Below are positions 1 through 21,415 of a stretch of 21,415 bases of DNA, piece by piece. This DNA comes from a virus. The notes beneath the pieces are model-generated. The model did not search any database and was not told the origin of the DNA. It saw nothing but the letters and a program-made list of their open reading frames with translations. The stretch's first letter is position 1. Every line of letters starts with the position of its first letter. The stretch is taken from positions 1 to 21,415 of IMG/VR virus record IMGVR_UViG_3300025120_000667; one strand, 5' to 3'. Position numbers and translations under genes: made by a program.

Positions 1-962
1 ACATTTACTCTGTCTATATACTTTTGATATTCTGCACCATTTGCTTGCGCCCATGCAGTGCCTCCTAATTGATTTAAAAGGTCGCCTAATTGTTTGATTT
101 GCTCTTCAGTAGCTTCAAACATAAAAGCCTCTACTAATAGTAATGTGCCACGCATAGAACTAATTAAATCTTGATCTGCACTAGTTGATATAACTTCTGG
201 TCCACCCTGTGCTACATCTGGTGTAGGTTCCATTTGTTTTAATAAGTTGTTTAATGCATCTATTGTTTTTTGTGTTTCTGGATCTGGTCCTGCTGGTGCT
301 GCACCAGGTGCTTTTGCTGTTGCAGTATTGCCGGCTAATGCCGCAAGTGTTTCTTGACCTGCTGCTCCGTCAACTGATAAACCTTTTGACTTTTGGAAAT
401 CTTGTACTGCTTTAAATGTACCATTACCGTACTTGCCGTCAACGCCATTTGGATCAAATCCTGCATCTAATAAGTCTTGTTGTAACTTTTTAATTTCAGG
501 CATTGCTTTTTTGCCGCCGTCTTGATATTGTTTCATCAAACTAGCAGTACTTGCTGGTGTTGCACTTGCTTGTGTTGCGGCTGCGTCTGCTGGACCGTCA
601 ACTCCTGCTGTTGCTTGTGTTGCGGCTGCGTCTGCTGGACCGTCAACTCCTGCTGTTGCTTGGCCTGCATCTGCTCCACCGCCTTGTGGTGCGGTGTCTT
701 GTGTTGCAGCTGCTGCATCAGCTGGTCCGTCAACTCCTGCTGTTGCGGCTGTTGCTGCTTTTGGGTCAGCGCCTGTTTTCTTTTGTACTGTATCAGCTGC
801 TGCTTTTGCAGTTTCGTCGTCTAAACCTAATGCTTTTTTACCGTAGGCTACAAGGTCGTCAAACCAACCTTCTTGCATTTCAGCTTCACGTTTTTCTTGT
901 AATGCTCTTGTTTCAATACCGTATGCATCAGCTGTTTTAATTAAATCTTTAATACTTTTCAT
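1..962 (-). CDS. Peptidoglycan-binding-domain protein with Ala-rich repeats, C-terminus off window
   Basis: An open frame runs leftward from an ATG at 962-960 and is still open at base 1; about 320 residues are visible. Residues 1-65 are charged and probably helical. Residues 70-140 are a low-complexity Ala/Thr/Gly/Asp linker with three copies of a unit containing ATAGVDGPADAAATQ. Residues about 153-211 match the PG_binding_1 fold: LQQDLLDAGFDPNGVDGKYG, then TFKAVQDFQKSKGLSVDG and LAALAG. This domain normally binds cell-wall peptidoglycan, so a virion or lysis-related role is likely. No catalytic domain is visible before the cut; one could lie beyond the edge. The start overlaps the stop of the upstream gene (ATGA), so the two are translationally coupled. 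The domain call is firm; the function is inference. Confidence 0.82.
   Translation of the reverse strand, partial: MKSIKDLIKTADAYGIETRALQEKREAEMQEGWFDDLVAYGKKALGLDDETAKAAADTVQKKTGADPKAATAATAGVDGPADAAAATQDTAPQGGGADAGQATAGVDGPADAAATQATAGVDGPADAAATQASATPASTASLMKQYQDGGKKAMPEIKKLQQDLLDAGFDPNGVDGKYGNGTFKAVQDFQKSKGLSVDGAAGQETLAALAGNTATAKAPGAAPAGPDPETQKTIDALNNLLKQMEPTPDVAQGGPEVISTSADQDLISSMRGTLLLVEAFMFEATEEQIKQLGDLLNQLGGTAWAQANGAEYQKYIDRVN
568..744. repeat. 45-bp in-frame tandem repeat inside the PGBD protein gene
   Basis: Two identical 45-bp units lie back to back at 568-612 and 613-657. A degenerate 48-bp relative, with a 3-bp insertion, lies at 697-744. The unit is a multiple of three and is read on the minus strand as Ala/Thr-rich linker residues including GVDGPADAAATQ. 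It reads as a coding minisatellite that could expand or contract the linker without a frameshift. Confidence 0.9.
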
Positions 963-8414: not shown

Positions 8415-8750
8415 ATGAGACCTTTATGTAAGTGCGGAGAACATCCTGCAGCAATAAATTATAAAAAAAATGGTCGCACTTATTATCGTAAAAAGTGTGA
8501 ACGATGCCTACGTAATGGTGTTAATTTTGGAGTGCCAAAATGGAAACAAGCAGGTTATCATAAGAAAACTAGTTGCGAAAAATGCAATTTTTCAAGTAAG
8601 TATCCTGAACAGTTTAATGTATTCCATATAGACGGTAACTTAAATAATGCACACTATAATAATTTAAAAACTATATGTGCTAACTGTCAAAGAGTTATGC
8701 AGAGGCAAGGAAGTCGCTGGAAGCAAGGTGATCTTGTACCCGACTTTTAA
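8415..8750 (+). CDS. Small HNH endonuclease-like zinc protein
   Basis: The 111-residue product has paired cysteines at C5/C7, C28/C31, C54/C57 and C88/C91, suggesting two zinc-binding clusters. The HNH-like core is FNVFHIDGNLNNAHYNNL (H71, D73, N78, N83). The N-terminus KNGRTYYRKKCERC and the C-terminus SRWKQGDLVPDF recur in related proteins of marine T4-like phages. Such proteins are annotated as HNH family; they may be free-standing homing endonucleases. The gene is on the opposite strand to its flanking genes, which fits an insertion. Its last 56 bases run antisense through the end of the gp1 kinase gene. AAGG is 14-15 bases before the ATG, too far for a good binding site. Whether it cuts DNA is not shown. 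Confidence 0.8.
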   Translation: MRPLCKCGEHPAAINYKKNGRTYYRKKCERCLRNGVNFGVPKWKQAGYHKKTSCEKCNFSSKYPEQFNVFHIDGNLNNAHYNNLKTICANCQRVMQRQGSRWKQGDLVPDF

Positions 8751-12833: not shown

Positions 12834-13265
12834 ATGGAAAAGATTATTTGTAGTGGCGCACTACTATATTCATTAAAAACTAAAAGATTTTTGTTTTTGC
12901 ACCGACAAAATGGTAGTAAAAACAATCTTTGGGGCCTTGTTGGCGGCACTAACGAAGGCAAAGAAACTCCTTGGGAAGGCCTAAAGCGAGAAATAAAAGA
13001 AGAAATTGGAAACGTAGAAATAAAAAAAACTATTCCTTTAGAAACCTTTGTATCTAATGATGATAAGTTTAGCTTTCACACATATTTGGTTGTAGTACCA
13101 GAAGAATTTATACCAGAATTAAATCACGAACATGATGGATATGCATGGGTAAGTTTTGGAAAGTGGCCTAAGCCGTTGCATCATGGTTTACGTAATACAC
13201 TAAGCAGTAAAATAAATCAAACAAAATTAGAAACAGTTTTCAAAGTAATAGATTTAATAACATAA
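12834..13265 (+). CDS. Nudix hydrolase
   Basis: The 143-residue protein carries a Nudix box at residues 38-59: G38, then five residues to E44, seven more to R52-E53, then E56-E57 and G59 (REIKEEIG). The family hydrolyses nucleoside diphosphates linked to another moiety; the substrate cannot be read from the box. The upstream strand GALLYSLKTKRFLFLHRQ and WGLVGG are typical of the fold. It starts 13 bases after gp15 on the same strand, with no clear Shine-Dalgarno sequence, so it probably relies on coupling to gp15. Its place in a late virion operon is unusual for a metabolic enzyme. The fold is firm; the role is unknown. Confidence 0.92.
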   Translation: MEKIICSGALLYSLKTKRFLFLHRQNGSKNNLWGLVGGTNEGKETPWEGLKREIKEEIGNVEIKKTIPLETFVSNDDKFSFHTYLVVVPEEFIPELNHEHDGYAWVSFGKWPKPLHHGLRNTLSSKINQTKLETVFKVIDLIT

Positions 13266-13273
13266 GGTATAAA

Positions 13274-13657
13274 ATGCAAGATAACATAAAAAGACACGAC
13301 TGGGGTTATGAAATAACTTGGGCACAAACACAAGAATATACTGGCAAGGTAATTGTTTTTGAAAAGCCTGCTAAGTCAGATATTGTCTTTCATAACAATA
13401 CTACAAAGTCTTATTTTGTTAATCAAGGAAAATTTAGTTTTAAATGGATAGATACAAAAGACGGTAAAGTATATGAAAATAATCTAGGAGAAGGCGGTAC
13501 AACTACTGTAAAGAAATTAGTTCCATATAGTATTGAATGTGTGTCTGCAACTGGTTCATTGTCCGAAGTTAACAACGGAGAACTTCAAGAAGATGTACAT
13601 ATAGTACTACCTGCAAAAAATTTAGGAGAAAACAATGTTTCCACGATTAACAGATGA
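13274..13657 (+). CDS. Cupin-like protein
   Basis: The 127-residue protein begins HDWGYEITWAQTQEYTGKVI and continues with FEKPAKSDIVFHNNTTKSYF, VNQGKFSFKWIDTKDGKVY and a proline/strand turn (KLVPYSIEC). This is the pattern of small cupins related to the sugar-isomerase WGYE type. Only one obvious His (FHNN) sits where metal ligands usually lie, so enzymatic activity is doubtful. AAGG lies about 6-7 bases before the ATG. It follows the Nudix gene by 8 bases and overlaps the next gene by 23 bases. Substrate and role are unknown. Confidence 0.65.
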   Translation: MQDNIKRHDWGYEITWAQTQEYTGKVIVFEKPAKSDIVFHNNTTKSYFVNQGKFSFKWIDTKDGKVYENNLGEGGTTTVKKLVPYSIECVSATGSLSEVNNGELQEDVHIVLPAKNLGENNVSTINR

Positions 13658-13904
13658 TCCCAAGTTTAAGAAAGATTTAAACACGTTTCAGAACATAAGA
13701 GATCAGTTACCAACTGAACTATCAAAAAATACAATGTCTAGTATCTTAGATGATTTTATTTCGTGTGCTAAAAATATTGACACACATCATACTCCATATC
13801 CGGATGGTACAATTACTCCTGGTAAACTTAGAGAAACAAGACAAAAATTAGTTAATCTAAGAATGCAATTAGAAAAATTTGAAAGAGATTTTAAAGCAAG
13901 TTAA
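13635..13904 (+). CDS. Small unknown phage protein overlapping the cupin gene
   Basis: The 89-residue product starts MFPRLTDDPKFKKDLNTFQN and is mostly helical and charged, ending in a probable helix (TRQKLVNLRMQLEKFERDFK). I do not recognise a family. AGGAG at 13624-13628, inside the end of the cupin gene, sits 6 bases before the ATG and supports this start. It is the last gene of the plus-strand operon and overlaps the convergent minus-strand gene by 14 bases; no terminator hairpin is visible at the junction. Confidence 0.7.
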   Translation: MFPRLTDDPKFKKDLNTFQNIRDQLPTELSKNTMSSILDDFISCAKNIDTHHTPYPDGTITPGKLRETRQKLVNLRMQLEKFERDFKAS

Positions 13905-14760
13905 TTTGCTTAATTGTAATAGCTCCAAACATTGCTGCGTGTGCAACACATTGATAACGATAAGTTCCACTAATGCCGTAGGGCACTCTCCAATATAAAA
14001 CACCATTGTCTTGCTGATTAGCTTGGGAGCCTGTTTGAATAGTTCCTCCTGCACCTACATGATATAATCCTGTAGTTAATGGAGTTCCAGTTGAGTCTTG
14101 TATTTGGAAAGGATGTCCAGCTGCGTTAATATCAAACGCTATTGTTAATCCTGTTATAGCATGAATAGTAGGATTGTTTCCTGAGTAATGGTCTCCAAAA
14201 AGATATGCTGCGGTTCCAACTGCTGTTACTCTATACATTGCTATTGCAGGTTCAAATATTTCTGCTACAGTTAAATTTGCTTGTGTTGCGTCAGTTGTAC
14301 CACTAAACGTACTTGAACCACCGCCACCTCCACCGCTTTGATCATCAGCAGTAATTGTAAGTGAGCTTGTGCCAGCATCAAGACTTAATGATATACGATC
14401 TCCAGCAATAAAAGTAAAAGTATCGTTAGGTGTTCCTGGAGTTGCTACTGTGCCGCCTGCTCCGAAACCTTCAAATAAATTTTGCGATACTCCGCCACCG
14501 CCGCCACCGCCGCCTGTATAATTAACACTTAGATTGTTACCAGTGACAGATGTTGAAATACCTGTGCCGCCTACAATGTTTAATGTGTCGTCAGGTGTTG
14601 ATGCTGTTACACTTCCAACAGATCCTGTTACAGTTTTAAATACTGCTTGACCTGCTAAACTTGTAATCAAATTCCAGGTTGTTCCGTCCCATTGCCAAGT
14701 GCTTCCTCCACCTGAAAATGTTTCATTTAGTGTTGGTGTATTTGGAAAATTTATTGCCAT
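13891..14760 (-). CDS. Virion fibre-like protein with C-terminal cupredoxin domain
   Basis: The 289-residue product opens with NFPNTPTLNETF and STWQWDGTTWNLITS, a module common in phage fibre-like proteins. Glycine runs at 83-90 and 143-148 separate repeated beta blocks with NDTFTFIAGDRISLSLD. The last 120 residues look like a type-1 copper (cupredoxin) fold: GLTIAFDINAAGHPFQIQD with H216, and GTYRYQCVAHAAMFGAITI with C271, H274 and M277. The CxxHxxM spacing is that of amicyanin. It is the last of four consecutive accessory virion-like genes. Copper binding is inferred from the motif; nothing in the sequence shows redox activity. Confidence 0.75.
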   Translation of the reverse strand: MAINFPNTPTLNETFSGGGSTWQWDGTTWNLITSLAGQAVFKTVTGSVGSVTASTPDDTLNIVGGTGISTSVTGNNLSVNYTGGGGGGGGVSQNLFEGFGAGGTVATPGTPNDTFTFIAGDRISLSLDAGTSSLTITADDQSGGGGGGSSTFSGTTDATQANLTVAEIFEPAIAMYRVTAVGTAAYLFGDHYSGNNPTIHAITGLTIAFDINAAGHPFQIQDSTGTPLTTGLYHVGAGGTIQTGSQANQQDNGVLYWRVPYGISGTYRYQCVAHAAMFGAITIKQINLL

Positions 14761-14776
14761 AAGTAACCTCTCATAG

Positions 14777-14784
14777 TATTTATG
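14777..14784 (-). promoter_or_regulatory. Late-promoter-like CATAAATA before the cupredoxin gene
   Basis: CATAAATA overlaps the TAA stop of the YHYH gene and lies 16 bases before the ATG at 14760. Since it overlaps coding sequence, part of the match may be chance. GAGAGG serves as the ribosome binding site. Confidence 0.45.
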
Positions 14785-15625
14785 CTGACCTTTGTTGCTT
14801 AGTACTTGGTCCTACAATATACGGATAAGCAGGACTGTAAAAATTATTTAATTCAAAAGTTACAAAATATGCATATGTACCTGCAGGATAGTCTGGTGTT
14901 ACACAATATCTGCCATTGTATTGATCTAATGTACCTAAATTAGGACGGTATTCATAATCTTCTACAAAACTTCCGTTTGTATGCTGACGGTAACCAAATA
15001 GTCTACCTTCAGTAGGTTGACTTTTTAAACTGTAACTACTTGTCATTTGTGCAGTGCCGCCAGTATTAGAATCTGCAATATGATATCCATATGGTCCGTA
15101 TAAAGGGTATCCATCAAATATCCACCCAATAATTTTACTATGTCCATCAGTGTGTCTTAGATTATCTCCTAAGTGTGAAGTATCTTTATAATATGCATTA
15201 CTATTTGTAAATTTTGGATTTCTCCAACCTGTTACAACGAACGACCCTGAGCGGTAATTATATTGGCCACTAGACGTAACATACCCGCCGGATCGATCAA
15301 GTTTGTAATTTGTTTCTTTGTGAACTATATTCCAATTAAAGTTTGTAGGAGCTTGATCAGCTACTCCTGGTAGTACAGTGTTTCCAATATTAGAAGTATA
15401 TAATGTTACTCCGTTCATTGTAATTCCTATAGGATCTAATCCAGTTGCATGGGCTTGTTCTGTGTTTAAGCCTGCTCTATCTTCAAAAATAAAATTATGA
15501 GATTGTGTTACTATTGTATTACCATCTAGCCAACCTTCACGCTCTGTTACTCCGTCATTGACTAACGGATTTCCTGCTTCTGCTGGATACGGATCACCGT
15601 CACTTGAGATTGTTATTGTTGGCAT
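14780..15625 (-). CDS. YHYH-domain protein, altered YHYH motif
   Basis: The 281-residue product has the YHYH-domain signature: DGHSKIIGWIFDGYPLYGPY at about residues 160-179, and GRYCVTPDYPAGTYAYFVTF with PAYPYIVGP near the C-terminus. Residues 60-85 (IGITMNGVTLYTSN) also fit. The namesake YHYH stretch appears as YNYR at residues 122-125 (QYNYRSGSF), so the usual histidines are lost. Domain function is not established; related proteins occur in marine bacteria and cyanophages. AAGGAG lies just before the ATG. The gene sits between a subtilase and a cupredoxin-domain gene, and is probably an accessory virion or secreted-like protein. No signal peptide is visible. Confidence 0.82.
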   Translation of the reverse strand: MPTITISSDGDPYPAEAGNPLVNDGVTEREGWLDGNTIVTQSHNFIFEDRAGLNTEQAHATGLDPIGITMNGVTLYTSNIGNTVLPGVADQAPTNFNWNIVHKETNYKLDRSGGYVTSSGQYNYRSGSFVVTGWRNPKFTNSNAYYKDTSHLGDNLRHTDGHSKIIGWIFDGYPLYGPYGYHIADSNTGGTAQMTSSYSLKSQPTEGRLFGYRQHTNGSFVEDYEYRPNLGTLDQYNGRYCVTPDYPAGTYAYFVTFELNNFYSPAYPYIVGPSTKQQRSA

Positions 15626-15634
15626 TCTATCTCC

Positions 15635-17221
15635 TTATACACTTATAGGTCCGTTAAAAGTAAATGAACCAGAAGCAGACCATGTGTTAGTGCTTCCGTA
15701 TTTTCCGTACAACATTCTGTTAGGAGAACCTAACAAACTAGTTGAAAAAATATTATAATCAGTGTCACTGCCTGTTTCGTATAATACGTTCTGACTGTCA
15801 TTTATTATTCTGTTTTTTAGTTGAGCAGGGGTCAAGTCCGGACGTATTTGAGCATGTAGTGCCATAACTCCTACAACTTGAGGAGTGGCAAAACTTGTAC
15901 CATCTATGTTTGTAATTTTATAAGTTGCATCTGTAGGATAGTCTCCTGAACTATAAGCTGTTGTTGTACTATTTGCTGCTTGTATGTTATTTCCAGGTGC
16001 AAATATATCTACTGCTGGTCCTCTATTTGTATATGTTGCAGTTTTATCTTTATAGACTCCGCCGTCATCAATTGTGCTTGTATCTATTGCACCTACTTTA
16101 ATTGCAGTATCGCTATTAGGACTAGAACCTCTATGGTAATTATATGTTGATCCATTAATTACAAATGTATTATTGTAATCAGCGCCTGCTGATGTGTCTA
16201 TTTTATAAAAATCATTTCCTGCAGCAATTACTACGTGTATACCTGCTGTAATCATGTCGTCTACTTCTGCATCTGCAAAAGCATTTCTAACAGGTATTTT
16301 TCGAGTTGCTCCTACAGCTGGAGGTACAACTCCAGTTGCTGCCCATAAAGCTGCATCTGTTGTATAATCTACTCCCCAGGTCCAAGCTGTACCTCTGTAT
16401 GTACCACTTGTAGGATCTCCTATTTGTTCAGCAAGATATTCCCAACTCATATTTACTATTGTTGGTCGTTTGTATCCTGTTGCAGGATCTACACCTTTGG
16501 CATTGTGCCAAAGTCTAATACTGTCAAATGCATCTGCTAATGGAATACCTGTACTACTATCACCCGACCCTTCTAGGCCCGATAACTTTTGACTTCTTAT
16601 AGTTGCATTTTTTGCCCAACCATAAACTTTACCAGCAATTATACTTGCACATACTGTTCCATGTCCGTCAAAATCTCTGTCGTGATTAGCGTTTTGTGTA
16701 CCTGATAATCCTGATTCAGTATACCAGTTTGTAGATACATATCTTGTAACACCAGATGCATTTTGCCAATCAGGATGTAAAGGTTCTACTCCACTGTCTT
16801 GTATTATTATATCAACACCTGTTCCGTCTAATGCATATCTATAAGGTGTTGAAAGAGATTCATTATCTGCAAATAAATTTGTAGTTTCTATGCAACGTCT
16901 TAGTCCCCAATTATTATTTGCATTGTTTACTGTTCCGTTTTTTGAAAATATACCTGCCTGTGATGCTGACCGTACTATTTTAATATCATCTCTTTGATCT
17001 GGTGGAATCTCAACTGCTTCTATTCTACTGTCGTTAGCAAGTTCGATTGCTTCTTCATCTGTTAAAGAAAAATGTGTAATACGTGTTGATCCTGGTCTTG
17101 CATTTTCTACGTCAACAGACCTATTAGGTATATTTCCAGACCCTGTAGATGCTTTTAAGTCTTCTTCTACTTCTACTAAGTTTATACCTTTTTTAACTAT
17201 TACTGCGTATTCTTTTTCCAT
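15635..17221 (-). CDS. Subtilisin-like S8 serine protease, intact catalytic triad
   Basis: The 528-residue product is a complete subtilase: Asp142 in IIIQDSGVEPLHPDW, His187 in FDGHGTVCASIIAG, oxyanion Asn336 in VIAAGND and Ser443 in DGTSFATPQVVGVMALH. Residues 1-80 (AVIVKKGINLVEVEED, then THFSLTDEEAIELANDSRIE) resemble an inhibitory I9-type prodomain. The C-terminus, GSTNTWSASGSFTFNGPISV, looks like a tail or capsid attachment segment. There is no signal peptide, so it likely acts in the infected cell or on the virion. It lies 8 bases after a cupredoxin-fibre gene and 9 before the YHYH gene. Substrate unknown; it could process fibre proteins or degrade host surface protein. Confidence 0.93.
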   Translation of the reverse strand: MEKEYAVIVKKGINLVEVEEDLKASTGSGNIPNRSVDVENARPGSTRITHFSLTDEEAIELANDSRIEAVEIPPDQRDDIKIVRSASQAGIFSKNGTVNNANNNWGLRRCIETTNLFADNESLSTPYRYALDGTGVDIIIQDSGVEPLHPDWQNASGVTRYVSTNWYTESGLSGTQNANHDRDFDGHGTVCASIIAGKVYGWAKNATIRSQKLSGLEGSGDSSTGIPLADAFDSIRLWHNAKGVDPATGYKRPTIVNMSWEYLAEQIGDPTSGTYRGTAWTWGVDYTTDAALWAATGVVPPAVGATRKIPVRNAFADAEVDDMITAGIHVVIAAGNDFYKIDTSAGADYNNTFVINGSTYNYHRGSSPNSDTAIKVGAIDTSTIDDGGVYKDKTATYTNRGPAVDIFAPGNNIQAANSTTTAYSSGDYPTDATYKITNIDGTSFATPQVVGVMALHAQIRPDLTPAQLKNRIINDSQNVLYETGSDTDYNIFSTSLLGSPNRMLYGKYGSTNTWSASGSFTFNGPISV

Positions 17222-17229
17222 ACTTTATC

Positions 17230-18660
17230 CTACACAATAGCTGAATCGTCTACTCGTCTCCAGGCTCCGTTAACATATGCTTGTATTCTATTATCAGTAG
17301 AATTATATATTAAGTCTCCGTTGACTGCACTAAGAGCATCTCTTTGTGTATTTGTAAAAGTAGGTAATCTAAAAGGACCGCCAGTAGCGCCTCCGGTAAC
17401 TATAACTCCATCAGGTGCTGTCATAGTAAATGTAGTAGCACTTGTTATACTAGGTGAACCAACTCCTGAATTTAAAAAACTATCTGCTGTAATATCATCA
17501 GCAACAACATCTCCTAACGTAATACTTTGTGTAGTAGTGCTTCCTCTTGTAATAACAGTATCTAATGTATCTGATTCTGCAAGTCCGGAAATGTTTGGTG
17601 GTGTATAACTAAATTCGCCAGTGCTACTATTGTATGTAAGTTCACCGCCACCACTTGCTGCTTGTGTTAAAACACTAAATGCATCAAGGTCAGCACCACC
17701 ACCACCGCCGGAGGTTGTTGAACTTATTTTCAAAGTATTTGTAGAACTGTTAATAACTAATTCTATACCGTCGCCTTCTTCAAAAGTTAGTGTATCATTT
17801 GCAACATCGGCAACTATAGTAGCACTATCACTATCTTTTATTGTAACATTTTGGAATGTAGAAATATTAGGTACTGGTGTTGAAGGTTGTATCCATTGAC
17901 TAGAGTCTCCGTCGTTTACATAAACAAATAATCTACCTGTGTCACTTTTAAACCAAATAGTTCCTGCTTCTGGAGTTGTAGGTGCACTGTCTGATACTTC
18001 AATACTTGCACCACCGCCGCCACCGCCTGGTGGTGAAACAGTAATAGTACTACCCATATTGTTATGATTTGTACACCAATAGTAAAGTGTAGTTGGTGTT
18101 GAACTTGTTACTGTAATTGTAACTTTACGGTTTGTAGATTTTGCATATCTTGCATCATATACTGTTTTAGTTACGATGTCGTCATCTAAATAATAATTAA
18201 CTCCGTCAAGATATGTTGTACCTGTGCCTCGTGGTCCATTTTGGTCATCTGCACTAAAATTAAGTGGATGTGTATTTAGAGTTCCGCCTTCAGCATTAGG
18301 ATAATATAAATTAGTTTGATCTGATTGGTCAAACATATATGTGTATCCAACAACAAGATTTAATGCCGGCTTGTATACTCCGTCTACTACGTATACGTTT
18401 CCAGTATCAGGCGAAATGCCTGAAACAACTGTAATTGTATAAGTTAAAGCTGCAACCCCTGTTGAGCTTAGTAATTCATTAAGGTTAGAATTAGTAATAA
18501 CCGTAGCACCGCCACGAAGTTTTCCGTCATATAATCTTAAAGTTTTTGTGCCCTTGTCATAGAATACTTCGCCGCTTGATCCAACATTTCTGTCTAAAAA
18601 ATCATCAGGACGAGGTATTAATCTTATTCTATCAACAATAGGTGCGCTGTTTGATGCCAT
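17230..18660 (-). CDS. Virion structural/fibre-like protein with cupredoxin domain
   Basis: The 476-residue product begins APIVDRIRLIPRPDDFLDRN, with SSGEVFYDKGTKTLRLYDGK, which I recognise in structural proteins of marine T4-like phages. Residues about 72-208 look like a cupredoxin: VVGYTYMFDQSDQTN, then THPLNFSADD with H131, and TTLYYWCTNHNNMGSTITV with C196, H199 and M202. Glycine runs at 212-217 and 318-322 link beta blocks (EAGTIWFKSDTGRLFVYVND; LTFEEGDGIELVINSSTNTL). The C-terminal LPTFTNTQRDALSAVNGDLI and AYVNGAWRRVDD are a common fibre-tip module. The ribosome binding site is CAGG. It heads the four-gene group. Copper binding is inferred from the CxxHxxM motif. Confidence 0.8.
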   Translation of the reverse strand: MASNSAPIVDRIRLIPRPDDFLDRNVGSSGEVFYDKGTKTLRLYDGKLRGGATVITNSNLNELLSSTGVAALTYTITVVSGISPDTGNVYVVDGVYKPALNLVVGYTYMFDQSDQTNLYYPNAEGGTLNTHPLNFSADDQNGPRGTGTTYLDGVNYYLDDDIVTKTVYDARYAKSTNRKVTITVTSSTPTTLYYWCTNHNNMGSTITVSPPGGGGGGASIEVSDSAPTTPEAGTIWFKSDTGRLFVYVNDGDSSQWIQPSTPVPNISTFQNVTIKDSDSATIVADVANDTLTFEEGDGIELVINSSTNTLKISSTTSGGGGGADLDAFSVLTQAASGGGELTYNSSTGEFSYTPPNISGLAESDTLDTVITRGSTTTQSITLGDVVADDITADSFLNSGVGSPSITSATTFTMTAPDGVIVTGGATGGPFRLPTFTNTQRDALSAVNGDLIYNSTDNRIQAYVNGAWRRVDDSAIV

Positions 18661-19105: not shown

Positions 19106-19843
19106 TTACTTCCTAAAATGTTTGAGCCAAGCATCTTTTAATACATTACGTTTTGGAAAGAAGCTCATATTCATAAAATAGTTCTTTTTCTTTTCCCAGG
19201 CTCTGTCTTTATCAGTAGCATCACGTACTTCAAAGTCAAATTGTTTTTCACTTATAGGTATTAGGTGACACAGGGGAGTTCCAATTTTTAACATAGTTTC
19301 TCCTTGTAATACATTCCAATTTACTTGTACGTTTACTTCATTACTTATGCCTGGATCTAACATGCCTATACTTGCATCAAAGTTACTTGTGTCTGAATAA
19401 GATAAAGGTAGCATTAAAAACTTTACACCCTTTGGTGCAATAATTCTCCAAGGAGTATTAAACTTTACTACACCCTTTATACTATAATGTCTTCTAGGTA
19501 AGTACTTTGTAATTTGTTCTTCGTGCTTACCTACTGGTGCAGTAACATCATCAATTGCAAGACTTTCAATATTGGCCGCCATCCATTTGAATGGATTATC
19601 AGGTCCTTCAGTTTTAATCATTACATCATGCCACATAGGAACTATATATCCGTGATTGTATAAATCAAATATACCGGGGCACTGCATTATATGGTTTGGA
19701 TTTATTTGCTGCGACATTGCAGATTTGTAATCTTGTCTTGCGGCATTCATCCACTTTGTTTCATATTTTTTTGCTGCATGTACAGGATATACATCTGCTA
19801 ATCCTGGTACTAAACTTACAAAAGTAATTTTTTCTTTACTCAT
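19106..19843 (-). CDS. Conserved T4-like marine phage protein, DUF6065-like
   Basis: The 245-residue product recurs, as far as I recall, in marine T4-like phages without a known function. Features: IMQCPGIFDLYNHGYIVPMW, then PRRHYSIKGVVKFNTPWRII, APKGVKFLMLPLSY, SIGMLDPGISNEVNVQVNWN and IKIGTPLCHLIPI-like strand pairs. The beta-rich pattern suggests a double-stranded beta-helix like DUF6065, but I cannot confirm that family. The C-terminus is helical and basic. Its ATG overlaps the oxygenase stop by 8 bases, so it is translationally coupled. Position after a 2OG oxygenase suggests a linked but unknown role. Confidence 0.65.
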   Translation of the reverse strand: MSKEKITFVSLVPGLADVYPVHAAKKYETKWMNAARQDYKSAMSQQINPNHIMQCPGIFDLYNHGYIVPMWHDVMIKTEGPDNPFKWMAANIESLAIDDVTAPVGKHEEQITKYLPRRHYSIKGVVKFNTPWRIIAPKGVKFLMLPLSYSDTSNFDASIGMLDPGISNEVNVQVNWNVLQGETMLKIGTPLCHLIPISEKQFDFEVRDATDKDRAWEKKKNYFMNMSFFPKRNVLKDAWLKHFRK

Positions 19844-20414
19844 AATCGACTATTATATCAAATGTTAAATTGATTCTTTCTCTGTTACTTAAATTAGGTT
19901 CTACTTCATGTGGTACCCAAGCTGGCCACATAATTAAATCACCATCCTTAGGATGAAAGTATGCATCTCTAACAAAAGGTGCAGTCTGCTTACAATCAGA
20001 TAATATATTTGCAGGGTTCATTAACCTAAGTGGTCCACAATCTGTTCCTTGCACATAGTATACACAACTAAAATTAGCACTCTTGTGAGAGTGTGTAACA
20101 TTTCTTGACCCTGGTGCATTAATGTTAGTCCAATATACAAAATTTTTTGACTTCACATTTATATTTTCAAACATTGGATCTTGTTTTTTATAAAAATCTA
20201 AAAATTCATCTGTAGTATCTTTTACAACGTCCAACAGCCAATCTATATCTTTGTAACTAACAGTGTTACGATAGCAACCTATATTTGACCTATAAGCGTT
20301 TGGAGTATCCTCTTGTGATACTTTAATTTGTTTTAACAGGTCTTCTCTTTGTTCTTTGCTTCCTATGTCTGCTTTTAATACACTGTCTGCTCTAAACAAT
20401 AATGTGCTATCCAT
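19836..20414 (-). CDS. 2OG-Fe(II) oxygenase
   Basis: The 192-residue product ends with the catalytic half of a 2-oxoglutarate/Fe(II) dioxygenase of the TIGR02466/PF13759 kind: THSHKSANFSCVYYVQ with H108 and H110, GPLRLMNP, then GDLIMWPAWVPHEVEPN with H169, and RERINLTFDI with R180, which would bind the 2OG carboxylate. In this family the first metal motif is HxH-like rather than HxD. It hydroxylates an unknown substrate. The start overlaps the halogenase stop by 8 bases and the end overlaps the next gene by 8, so the operon is coupled. Confidence 0.85.
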   Translation of the reverse strand: MDSTLLFRADSVLKADIGSKEQREDLLKQIKVSQEDTPNAYRSNIGCYRNTVSYKDIDWLLDVVKDTTDEFLDFYKKQDPMFENINVKSKNFVYWTNINAPGSRNVTHSHKSANFSCVYYVQGTDCGPLRLMNPANILSDCKQTAPFVRDAYFHPKDGDLIMWPAWVPHEVEPNLSNRERINLTFDIIVDYE

Positions 20415-21415
20415 TATACCATCCCTTTAGGTAGTTATAATGGTTTTGAAAATATTTTTCAGCCAATTCATTTTTATTTGAGATAGCTTCAGTGTAATAT
20501 TTTCCATATTGTTCTTGTTTCTCAGTAATATAAGGCTCAATGTTATCATATGCTCCTCCTGCCTTTAGCATACTAAACCATTGACATACGCTAAACATAC
20601 TATCAGGAGAATACATAAAATATCTTGCAGGCGCAGGCAATAAACTAGATATCATTTTTTGAGATCCTTCAGGTAAGTCCTCTAATTTTAAATTTCTTAT
20701 CTCTTTCCAATAATCTGTATCGCTCTTTGAACTATAATAGTAATGTGCCCAAACAAATGCAAGTATTTCGTCACTCATCATTTGAAAATGCTGGTTAATT
20801 CTTCTATGAGCAGTGGGGCTCCAAACATTTCCTGATTGGTTTAATTGTTCTGTAATGTATTCTACTACTGCTGTAGTAAAAGTAATACCAGTTGCTTCTA
20901 ATGGTTCTACAAATCCTGCACTAAGTCCTACTGCACACACATTTTTCTTTGCAATGTTTTTATGATAGCCTGTTTTCATTTTCAAATGTTTAATTGGTGT
21001 ATCAAAGTCGTTTAATGAAGTCCTAAATTCAGTTTCTGCTTGGTCTTGGCTAATAAAATCACTAGAATATACATATCCGTTACCAATTCTGTGGTATGTT
21101 GGTATAGTCCAACGCCAACCACTGGTCATTGCGGTTGCTTTTGTGTAAGGGTGACATTCTTTTTCAGGATCTTTGTATTGTACCGGCATTGCCATAGCAC
21201 TATCATTAGCTAACCAACGCTTATAAGGTAAAAATGGTTCTCGAAGAGTCTTTTCAAGTAATATACTTTCAAATCCAGAGCAATCTATGAATAGATCAGC
21301 TTCGTATTTGGTTCCATCTTCGTTTACGAGAGCAGTTATACCATCATCGTCAGTAAGTACCTGTGTAATCTTAGTATCAACATAATTTATTTTTGTAAAA
21401 ATTAGTTTTTTGATA
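20407..21415 (-). CDS. Tryptophan halogenase family protein, N-terminus off window
   Basis: The frame is open from base 21415, so the N-terminus lies beyond the right edge and about 336 residues are visible. Motifs are clear: DLFIDCSGFESILLE (about 21291-21247), WxWxIP as GWRWTIPTYHRIGNGYVYSS from about 21120, and GLSAGFVEPLEATGITFTT near 20925. This is the flavin-dependent tryptophan halogenase family, which uses FADH2, oxygen and halide. The FAD-binding GxGxxG and the catalytic Lys would be upstream. Such genes occur in cyanophages but their substrate is unknown. An internal ATG at 21195 is not the start; the protein continues through it. It is translationally coupled to the 2OG oxygenase. 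Confidence 0.93.
   Translation of the reverse strand, partial: IKKLIFTKINYVDTKITQVLTDDDGITALVNEDGTKYEADLFIDCSGFESILLEKTLREPFLPYKRWLANDSAMAMPVQYKDPEKECHPYTKATAMTSGWRWTIPTYHRIGNGYVYSSDFISQDQAETEFRTSLNDFDTPIKHLKMKTGYHKNIAKKNVCAVGLSAGFVEPLEATGITFTTAVVEYITEQLNQSGNVWSPTAHRRINQHFQMMSDEILAFVWAHYYYSSKSDTDYWKEIRNLKLEDLPEGSQKMISSLLPAPARYFMYSPDSMFSVCQWFSMLKAGGAYDNIEPYITEKQEQYGKYYTEAISNKNELAEKYFQNHYNYLKGWYNG

Follow-up and report, generated by a model that had tools for sequence, protein, structure and literature searches.

Analysis of a record of 21,415 bases from a marine virus of bacteria (hereafter, the window) and of related phage loci indicates that a cluster of four tail-type genes contains a conserved unit, widespread among related phages, of three genes rather than four: a fibre-like protein with a cupredoxin domain (CUPa), a subtilase (S8), and a second protein with a cupredoxin domain (CUPb). 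We lean towards the interpretation that this unit comprises an exchangeable surface protease mounted on the virion beside fibre caps that bear metal sites. The presence of the module in virions is supported by homologues; the metal loading, the timing of protease activation and the host-surface substrate are what we infer.

Organization of the locus

All four genes are located on the minus strand and follow one another in transcription order: CUPa, a fibre-like protein of 476 aa (17230..18660), the S8 subtilase proenzyme of 528 aa (15635..17221), a divergent YHYH-family protein of 281 aa that appears to be inserted in the S8-CUPb slot (14780..15625), and CUPb of 289 aa (13891..14760). The gaps between the window ORFs are 8 bases for CUPa/S8, 9 for S8/YHYH and 19 for YHYH/CUPb, exactly as described in the sequence-only reading of this DNA, which reported four consecutive co-directional genes with gaps of 8-19 bases.

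The tail sheath protein of the window is closest to those of Atu_ph07 (43%), Phosso and PA5oct-type jumbo phages. Atu_ph07 and Phosso each also encode an S8 protein, surrounded by tail-type genes. Because of this affinity of the sheath, a cyanophage origin of the whole window was rejected, and the initial reference to marine T4-like genomes needs care, the sheath being of the Atu_ph07 type.

Several other genes were observed around the module. A tryptophan halogenase (3e-71) and a 2OG-Fe(II) oxygenase are encoded upstream of it (19836-21414, minus strand), and the same pair precedes the module in L007, L010 and L019. A convergent block (12834-13904, plus strand) runs from an 89-aa ORF through a cysteine dioxygenase-like protein of 127 aa and a NUDIX protein to a gp15-like sheath terminator; most close relatives have this block after the module as well. 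At the other end of the window (3-962, minus strand), a gene cut by the record end encodes a peptidoglycan-binding domain protein (PF01471, 5e-17) with TAGVDGPADAAATQ repeats. A Cys/His-rich ORF of 111 aa (8415-8750, plus strand), for which no Pfam match was found, overlaps the end of a dNMP kinase gene on the opposite strand.

Cupredoxin domains in CUPa and CUPb

CUPa is composed of a conserved N-terminal domain (PIVDRIRLIPRPDDFLDRNVGSSGEVFYD), a cupredoxin domain (aa 74-212; 18025..18441, minus strand) and a subsequent fibre-type region, and it matches the profiles of a tail fibre (phrog_9729, 2.3e-19) and a baseplate wedge protein (phrog_708, 9.7e-15). In CUPb, a short conserved N-terminal domain is followed by fibre-type repeats and a C-terminal cupredoxin cap (aa 160-289; 13894..14283, minus strand). 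The predicted metal ligands are His131, Cys196, His199 and Met202 in CUPa, and His216, Cys271, His274 and Met277 in CUPb. The amicyanin-like CxxHxxM motifs initially noticed in both fibre-like proteins are thus situated inside true cupredoxin domains with the full His-Cys-His-Met set.

The evidence for the fold comes from several comparisons: (i) the CUPb domain profile retrieved blue copper proteins from PDB sequences at E-values of 1e-4 to 1e-2, including copper nitrite reductase (1.1e-4), plastocyanin (3.1e-4), rusticyanin and amicyanin, (ii) the CUPb model, confident over residues 160-289, matched rusticyanin in Foldseek (6.8e-6) and copper nitrite reductase with Z 11.6 over 112 residues at 2.5 A, and (iii) the CUPa and CUPb domain profiles matched each other with the ligands in register (E 2.7e-7). 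The CUPa profile retrieved nothing meaningful from the PDB by sequence, and the assignment of this domain as a cupredoxin rests on its ligand pattern and on the profile-profile match to CUPb.

Of 154 CUPb-type domain matches, 148 retain the His-Cys-His-Met set. Among 45 CUPa-type matches, 32 have His-Cys-His-Met and 9 have His-Cys-His-Gln, 41 together (duplicates were not removed from either set). Glutamine is a known axial copper ligand in stellacyanin. Given this conservation of ligands in relatives, the CxxHxxM motifs are not due to chance. Both cupredoxin domains probably hold a metal, most likely copper. As to a cellular origin of CUPb, no relative was confirmed by the pattern-plus-tblastn scan of genome contigs.

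CUPb also matches the profile of gp9, annotated as the baseplate wedge tail fibre connector of cyanophages (phrog_677, 4.7e-36). The gp9 proteins of S-SSM5, S-B64, S-RIM8 and ACG-2014d (L274, L275, L276 and L188, respectively) have a C-terminal cupredoxin domain in which all four ligands are present, and a structure search of viral predictions independently yielded cyanophage gp9 connectors, long tail fibres and S8 proteins. The similarity links aa 88-285 of CUPb to the C-terminal half of the gp9 profile, covering only positions 216-410 of 412, whereas CUPb has an N-terminal domain of its own. Because the similarity does not extend over the full length, with the N-terminal half of the profile unmatched, the assignment of CUPb as a T4-type gp9 connector was rejected.

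S8 is a proteinase K-type subtilase with a propeptide

The S8 protein matches the Pfam family Peptidase_S8 (9e-28). Its AlphaFold2 model (pLDDT 87, pTM 0.88) has a subtilisin fold and aligns with keratinase 5wsl (Z 36.0) and aqualysin 4dzt (Z 35.9). The proteinase K-like catalytic domain (aa 101-510; 15692..16921, minus strand) includes Asp142, His187, Asn336 and Ser443, which are invariant in an alignment of 35 sequences. In the wider set, counted over sequences with a residue aligned at the position and without removal of duplicates, Asp, Asn and Ser are found in every sequence (133, 136 and 136, respectively) and His in 137 of 139. In L075, L078, L080, L088, L089, L141 and L176, ~300 aa are inserted between the catalytic residues Asp and His. 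A match in Acinetobacter MD-2021a was set aside, being surrounded by bacterial genes.

An N-terminal propeptide (~aa 1-95; 16937..17221, minus strand) is predicted from model topology and from structural alignment. Residues 1-84 of the model follow the beta-alpha-beta-beta-alpha-beta order of I9 propeptides, with a low-confidence linker at 86-95. From residue 1 or 2 onwards, the model superposes on pro-subtilisin E (3whi; Z 31.2, 333 residues) and likewise on ProN-Tk-SP (3afg) and fervidolysin (1r6v), all three being structures that include the propeptide. An I9-type propeptide is therefore assigned from these two lines of evidence; sequence alone barely reveals it, the Pfam I9 profile matching one of 38 members at E 0.15. 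No hydrophobic signal sequence was visible when the protein was inspected by eye. The initial description of an intact S8 protease is confirmed and extended to a proteinase K-type subtilase with all catalytic residues and a pro-subtilisin-like propeptide.

Conservation and exchange of the unit

To describe the neighbourhoods of these genes, viral contigs were scanned with the S8 and CUPb profiles, and together with loci from phage records 179 sequences were analysed. Clustering at 90% identity gave 39 CUPb-selected clusters (35 with enough upstream sequence) and 52 S8-selected clusters (49 with downstream sequence). S8 is encoded directly upstream of CUPb in 26 of the 35 CUPb-selected clusters, and in one more cluster a YHYH gene and then S8 are found at this position. 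Starting from S8, CUPb is the next gene in 23 of 49 clusters, lies within three genes in 2 and is fused in 4, for a total of 29. The S8-CUPb pairing is not obligatory, since ~20 of the 49 clusters have no CUPb nearby. S8 and CUPb are mostly separated by 9-31 bases, and the gene upstream of S8 often overlaps it by 1-4 bases.

The slots of the unit are variable. Other, fibre-like genes are present between S8 and CUPb in L048 and L082. S8 is absent between CUPa and CUPb in L134, L154, L155 and L161, and its place is taken by a protein of 352-355 aa in L125, L126, L157, L159 and L169. This protein, encoded for example at 7910-8977 of L125 and at 7923-8981 of L157, had no significant Pfam or PHROG match.

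The YHYH gene is observed in the module only in the window, in L006 and in the fragment L105/L201; it was accordingly rejected as a core member and, judging by this distribution, is an insertion of the close lineage of the window. The search for co-occurrence proposed at the outset thus upheld the association of the subtilase with the cupredoxin proteins, with YHYH not being a regular partner. The membership of the protein in the YHYH family also stands in part. It matches PF14240 at 3.2e-33 with 115.8 bits, above the curated cut-off of 25; the name-giving motif, EYHYHS in the cyanophage ACG-2014d, is changed to EYRYRS in nearby relatives and to YNYR in the window, and we therefore describe this protein as a divergent relative. 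The YHYH domain has been predicted to be a metal-dependent hydrolase from its conserved histidines and an aspartate (PMC7824862). With the motif altered to YNYR here and to EYRYRS nearby, the window protein has probably lost at least part of this proposed site.

Fusions provide another link between the components. A C-terminal cupredoxin domain is attached to S8 in L005, L055, L059, L073, L057, L061, L064, L068 and L135, as well as in the isolates ACG-2014e (686 aa) and ACG-2014h (974 aa). In P-SSM2, the gene following S8 encodes a tail fibre with two cupredoxin domains. Cultured Synechococcus phages with the set include S-CREM1, S-H38, ACG-2014e/h and S-SCSM1. The S8 protein of S-SCSM1 (SSCSM1_228) also bears a lectin-like Laminin_G_3 domain.

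Evidence for location in the virion

In the S-SCSM1 record, the tag 'virion protein' is attached to the S8 protein SSCSM1_228, the cupredoxin-bearing long tail fibre SSCSM1_231 and the YHYH-bearing wedge SSCSM1_15. The corresponding paper describes mass spectrometry of CsCl-purified virions with 45 proteins detected (PMC9602691). These tags follow the experiment only approximately, since we counted 48 of them in the record and the genes for terminase, hub proteins and other structural components carry none. In Atu_ph07, the S8 gene is gp329, as counted from named genes. According to the genome description, three clusters hold most of the virion proteins detected by mass spectrometry, one of them being CDS 284-329 (PMC6102473), so that gp329 is the end gene of a virion cluster. 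The virion-proteome homologues are only ~27-29% identical, and this evidence concerns homologues of the window proteins. The initial suggestion is thus supported in part: the subtilase and the cupredoxin proteins form a co-occurring set of virion type, with homologues that are tagged as virion proteins or lie in virion-protein clusters, and YHYH is not part of the regular set.

Proposed role of the unit and alternative explanations

A swappable protease mounted on the virion is the simplest account of these observations, since it covers the linkage, the fusions, the exchangeability and the virion tags. The proposed pathway would proceed as follows: (i) CUPa and CUPb would be structural proteins of the fibre or baseplate-connector type, whose cupredoxin domains probably bind a metal and may act as rigid, protease-resistant caps, (ii) S8 would be made in the cytoplasm as a zymogen inhibited by its propeptide and built into the tail beside or on a cupredoxin-capped protein, (iii) the propeptide would keep the enzyme silent until release, after which it would be active on the released virion, and (iv) the active protease would cut host-surface proteins, allowing the tail to reach its receptor or the membrane. 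The N-terminal propeptide would also suit a protease used in assembly only, and this counts against the surface-protease interpretation.

The sequence-only reading had offered such an assembly function, with the protease maturing the fibre proteins. In this explanation, which we consider rather unlikely, S8 would process the fibre proteins, or its own propeptide and C-terminal extensions, while the tail is being assembled and would remain in the particle as a spent enzyme. Tight linkage with, and fusion to, fibre-type domains are in its favour, and a zymogen-type propeptide in a protein lacking a signal peptide fits cytoplasmic timing. Serine proteases are also used by phages for head maturation. 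Nevertheless, we disfavour fibre maturation, given that CUPa/CUPb pairs are found without S8 between them, or with the unrelated 352-355 aa protein instead, and that S8 is itself fused to cupredoxin domains or, in S-SCSM1, to a lectin-like domain.

The lack of a visible signal peptide and the patchy distribution of S8 across tail modules are also consistent with a protease that works within the infected cell or at lysis, with host proteins as possible targets, and is only co-packaged or co-expressed with the tail genes. We regard this as quite improbable, as the cupredoxin and lectin fusions, the S-SCSM1 virion tag and the surrounding tail genes in the phage genomes examined fit a structural position better. 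A domain that serves mainly for binding or as a structural scaffold, with proteolysis of little weight, could accommodate the members with ~300 aa insertions between Asp and His, but it is very improbable, retention of the catalytic residues in essentially every aligned S8 protein being unexpected of a scaffold.

Returning to the virion-mounted protease, the tail-associated enzymes known so far mostly cut polysaccharide or peptidoglycan, and a mobile subtilase on the virion would be their protein-directed counterpart; it could explain how large marine phages pass protein surface layers. A more far-reaching idea, which we hold to be doubtful, is that many marine phages have functional blue-copper sites in their tail fibres and gp9-type connectors, and that in one widespread module such a site is coupled structurally and functionally to a virion-borne subtilase, with the metal state or host-surface metal uptake systems aiding recognition or triggering proteolysis at infection. 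A working blue-copper site in fibres or connectors would be a virion metal site for which we found no earlier description. With conserved type-1 copper ligands present in fibre proteins as well as in the gp9 proteins of cultured cyanophages, the question of virion copper is directly testable. If virions do contain copper, phages would be a copper-binding colloid in sea water, as proposed for iron.

Comparison with known systems

In the open-access literature, which was the scope of our search, no papers on cupredoxin domains in virions or on virion subtilases were found. The initial statement that no described system has this combination therefore holds for that literature, whereas single parts are known: S8 peptidases have been noted in cyanophages (PMC3037559) and YHYH domains in phage tails (PMC7824862, PMC7029224). 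The window YHYH protein shares the PF14240 match with the latter (PMC7824862), but it is a stand-alone protein with the motif YNYR, whereas most relatives are fused to large proteins.

The S8 protein resembles the proteinase K-type subtilases of MEROPS family S8, such as aqualysin I and Meiothermus keratinase, in its catalytic fold (Z ~36), in 32-33% identity over the aligned part and in all catalytic residues, and its propeptide has the same position as in pro-subtilisin. It differs from them in its phage tail gene context, in having no visible signal peptide and in the fusion of its relatives to cupredoxin or lectin domains. The S8 domain is homologous to that of the cyanophage proteins SSCSM1_228, PSSM2_297 of P-SSM2 and those of ACG-2014e/h, where tail fibre genes adjoin and a cupredoxin is either fused or present in a neighbouring fibre protein; the identity is only ~24-34%, and the flanking fibre genes differ.

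CUPa and CUPb share the cupredoxin fold and the His-Cys-His-Met ligands with the type-1 copper proteins amicyanin, plastocyanin, rusticyanin and NirK, the CxxHxxM spacing being that of amicyanin, and some CUPa relatives have Gln for Met, as in stellacyanin. Unlike these proteins, the phage domains are located in fibre-type or connector-type proteins, have no known electron partner, and their copper site is predicted from the ligands. A metal site in a phage fibre protein has also been proposed for the iron-binding (HxH) tail fibre tips of the Ferrojan/Trojan horse hypothesis (PMC11705849), from which CUPa and CUPb, with their predicted cupredoxin site, differ in both fold and ligand set.
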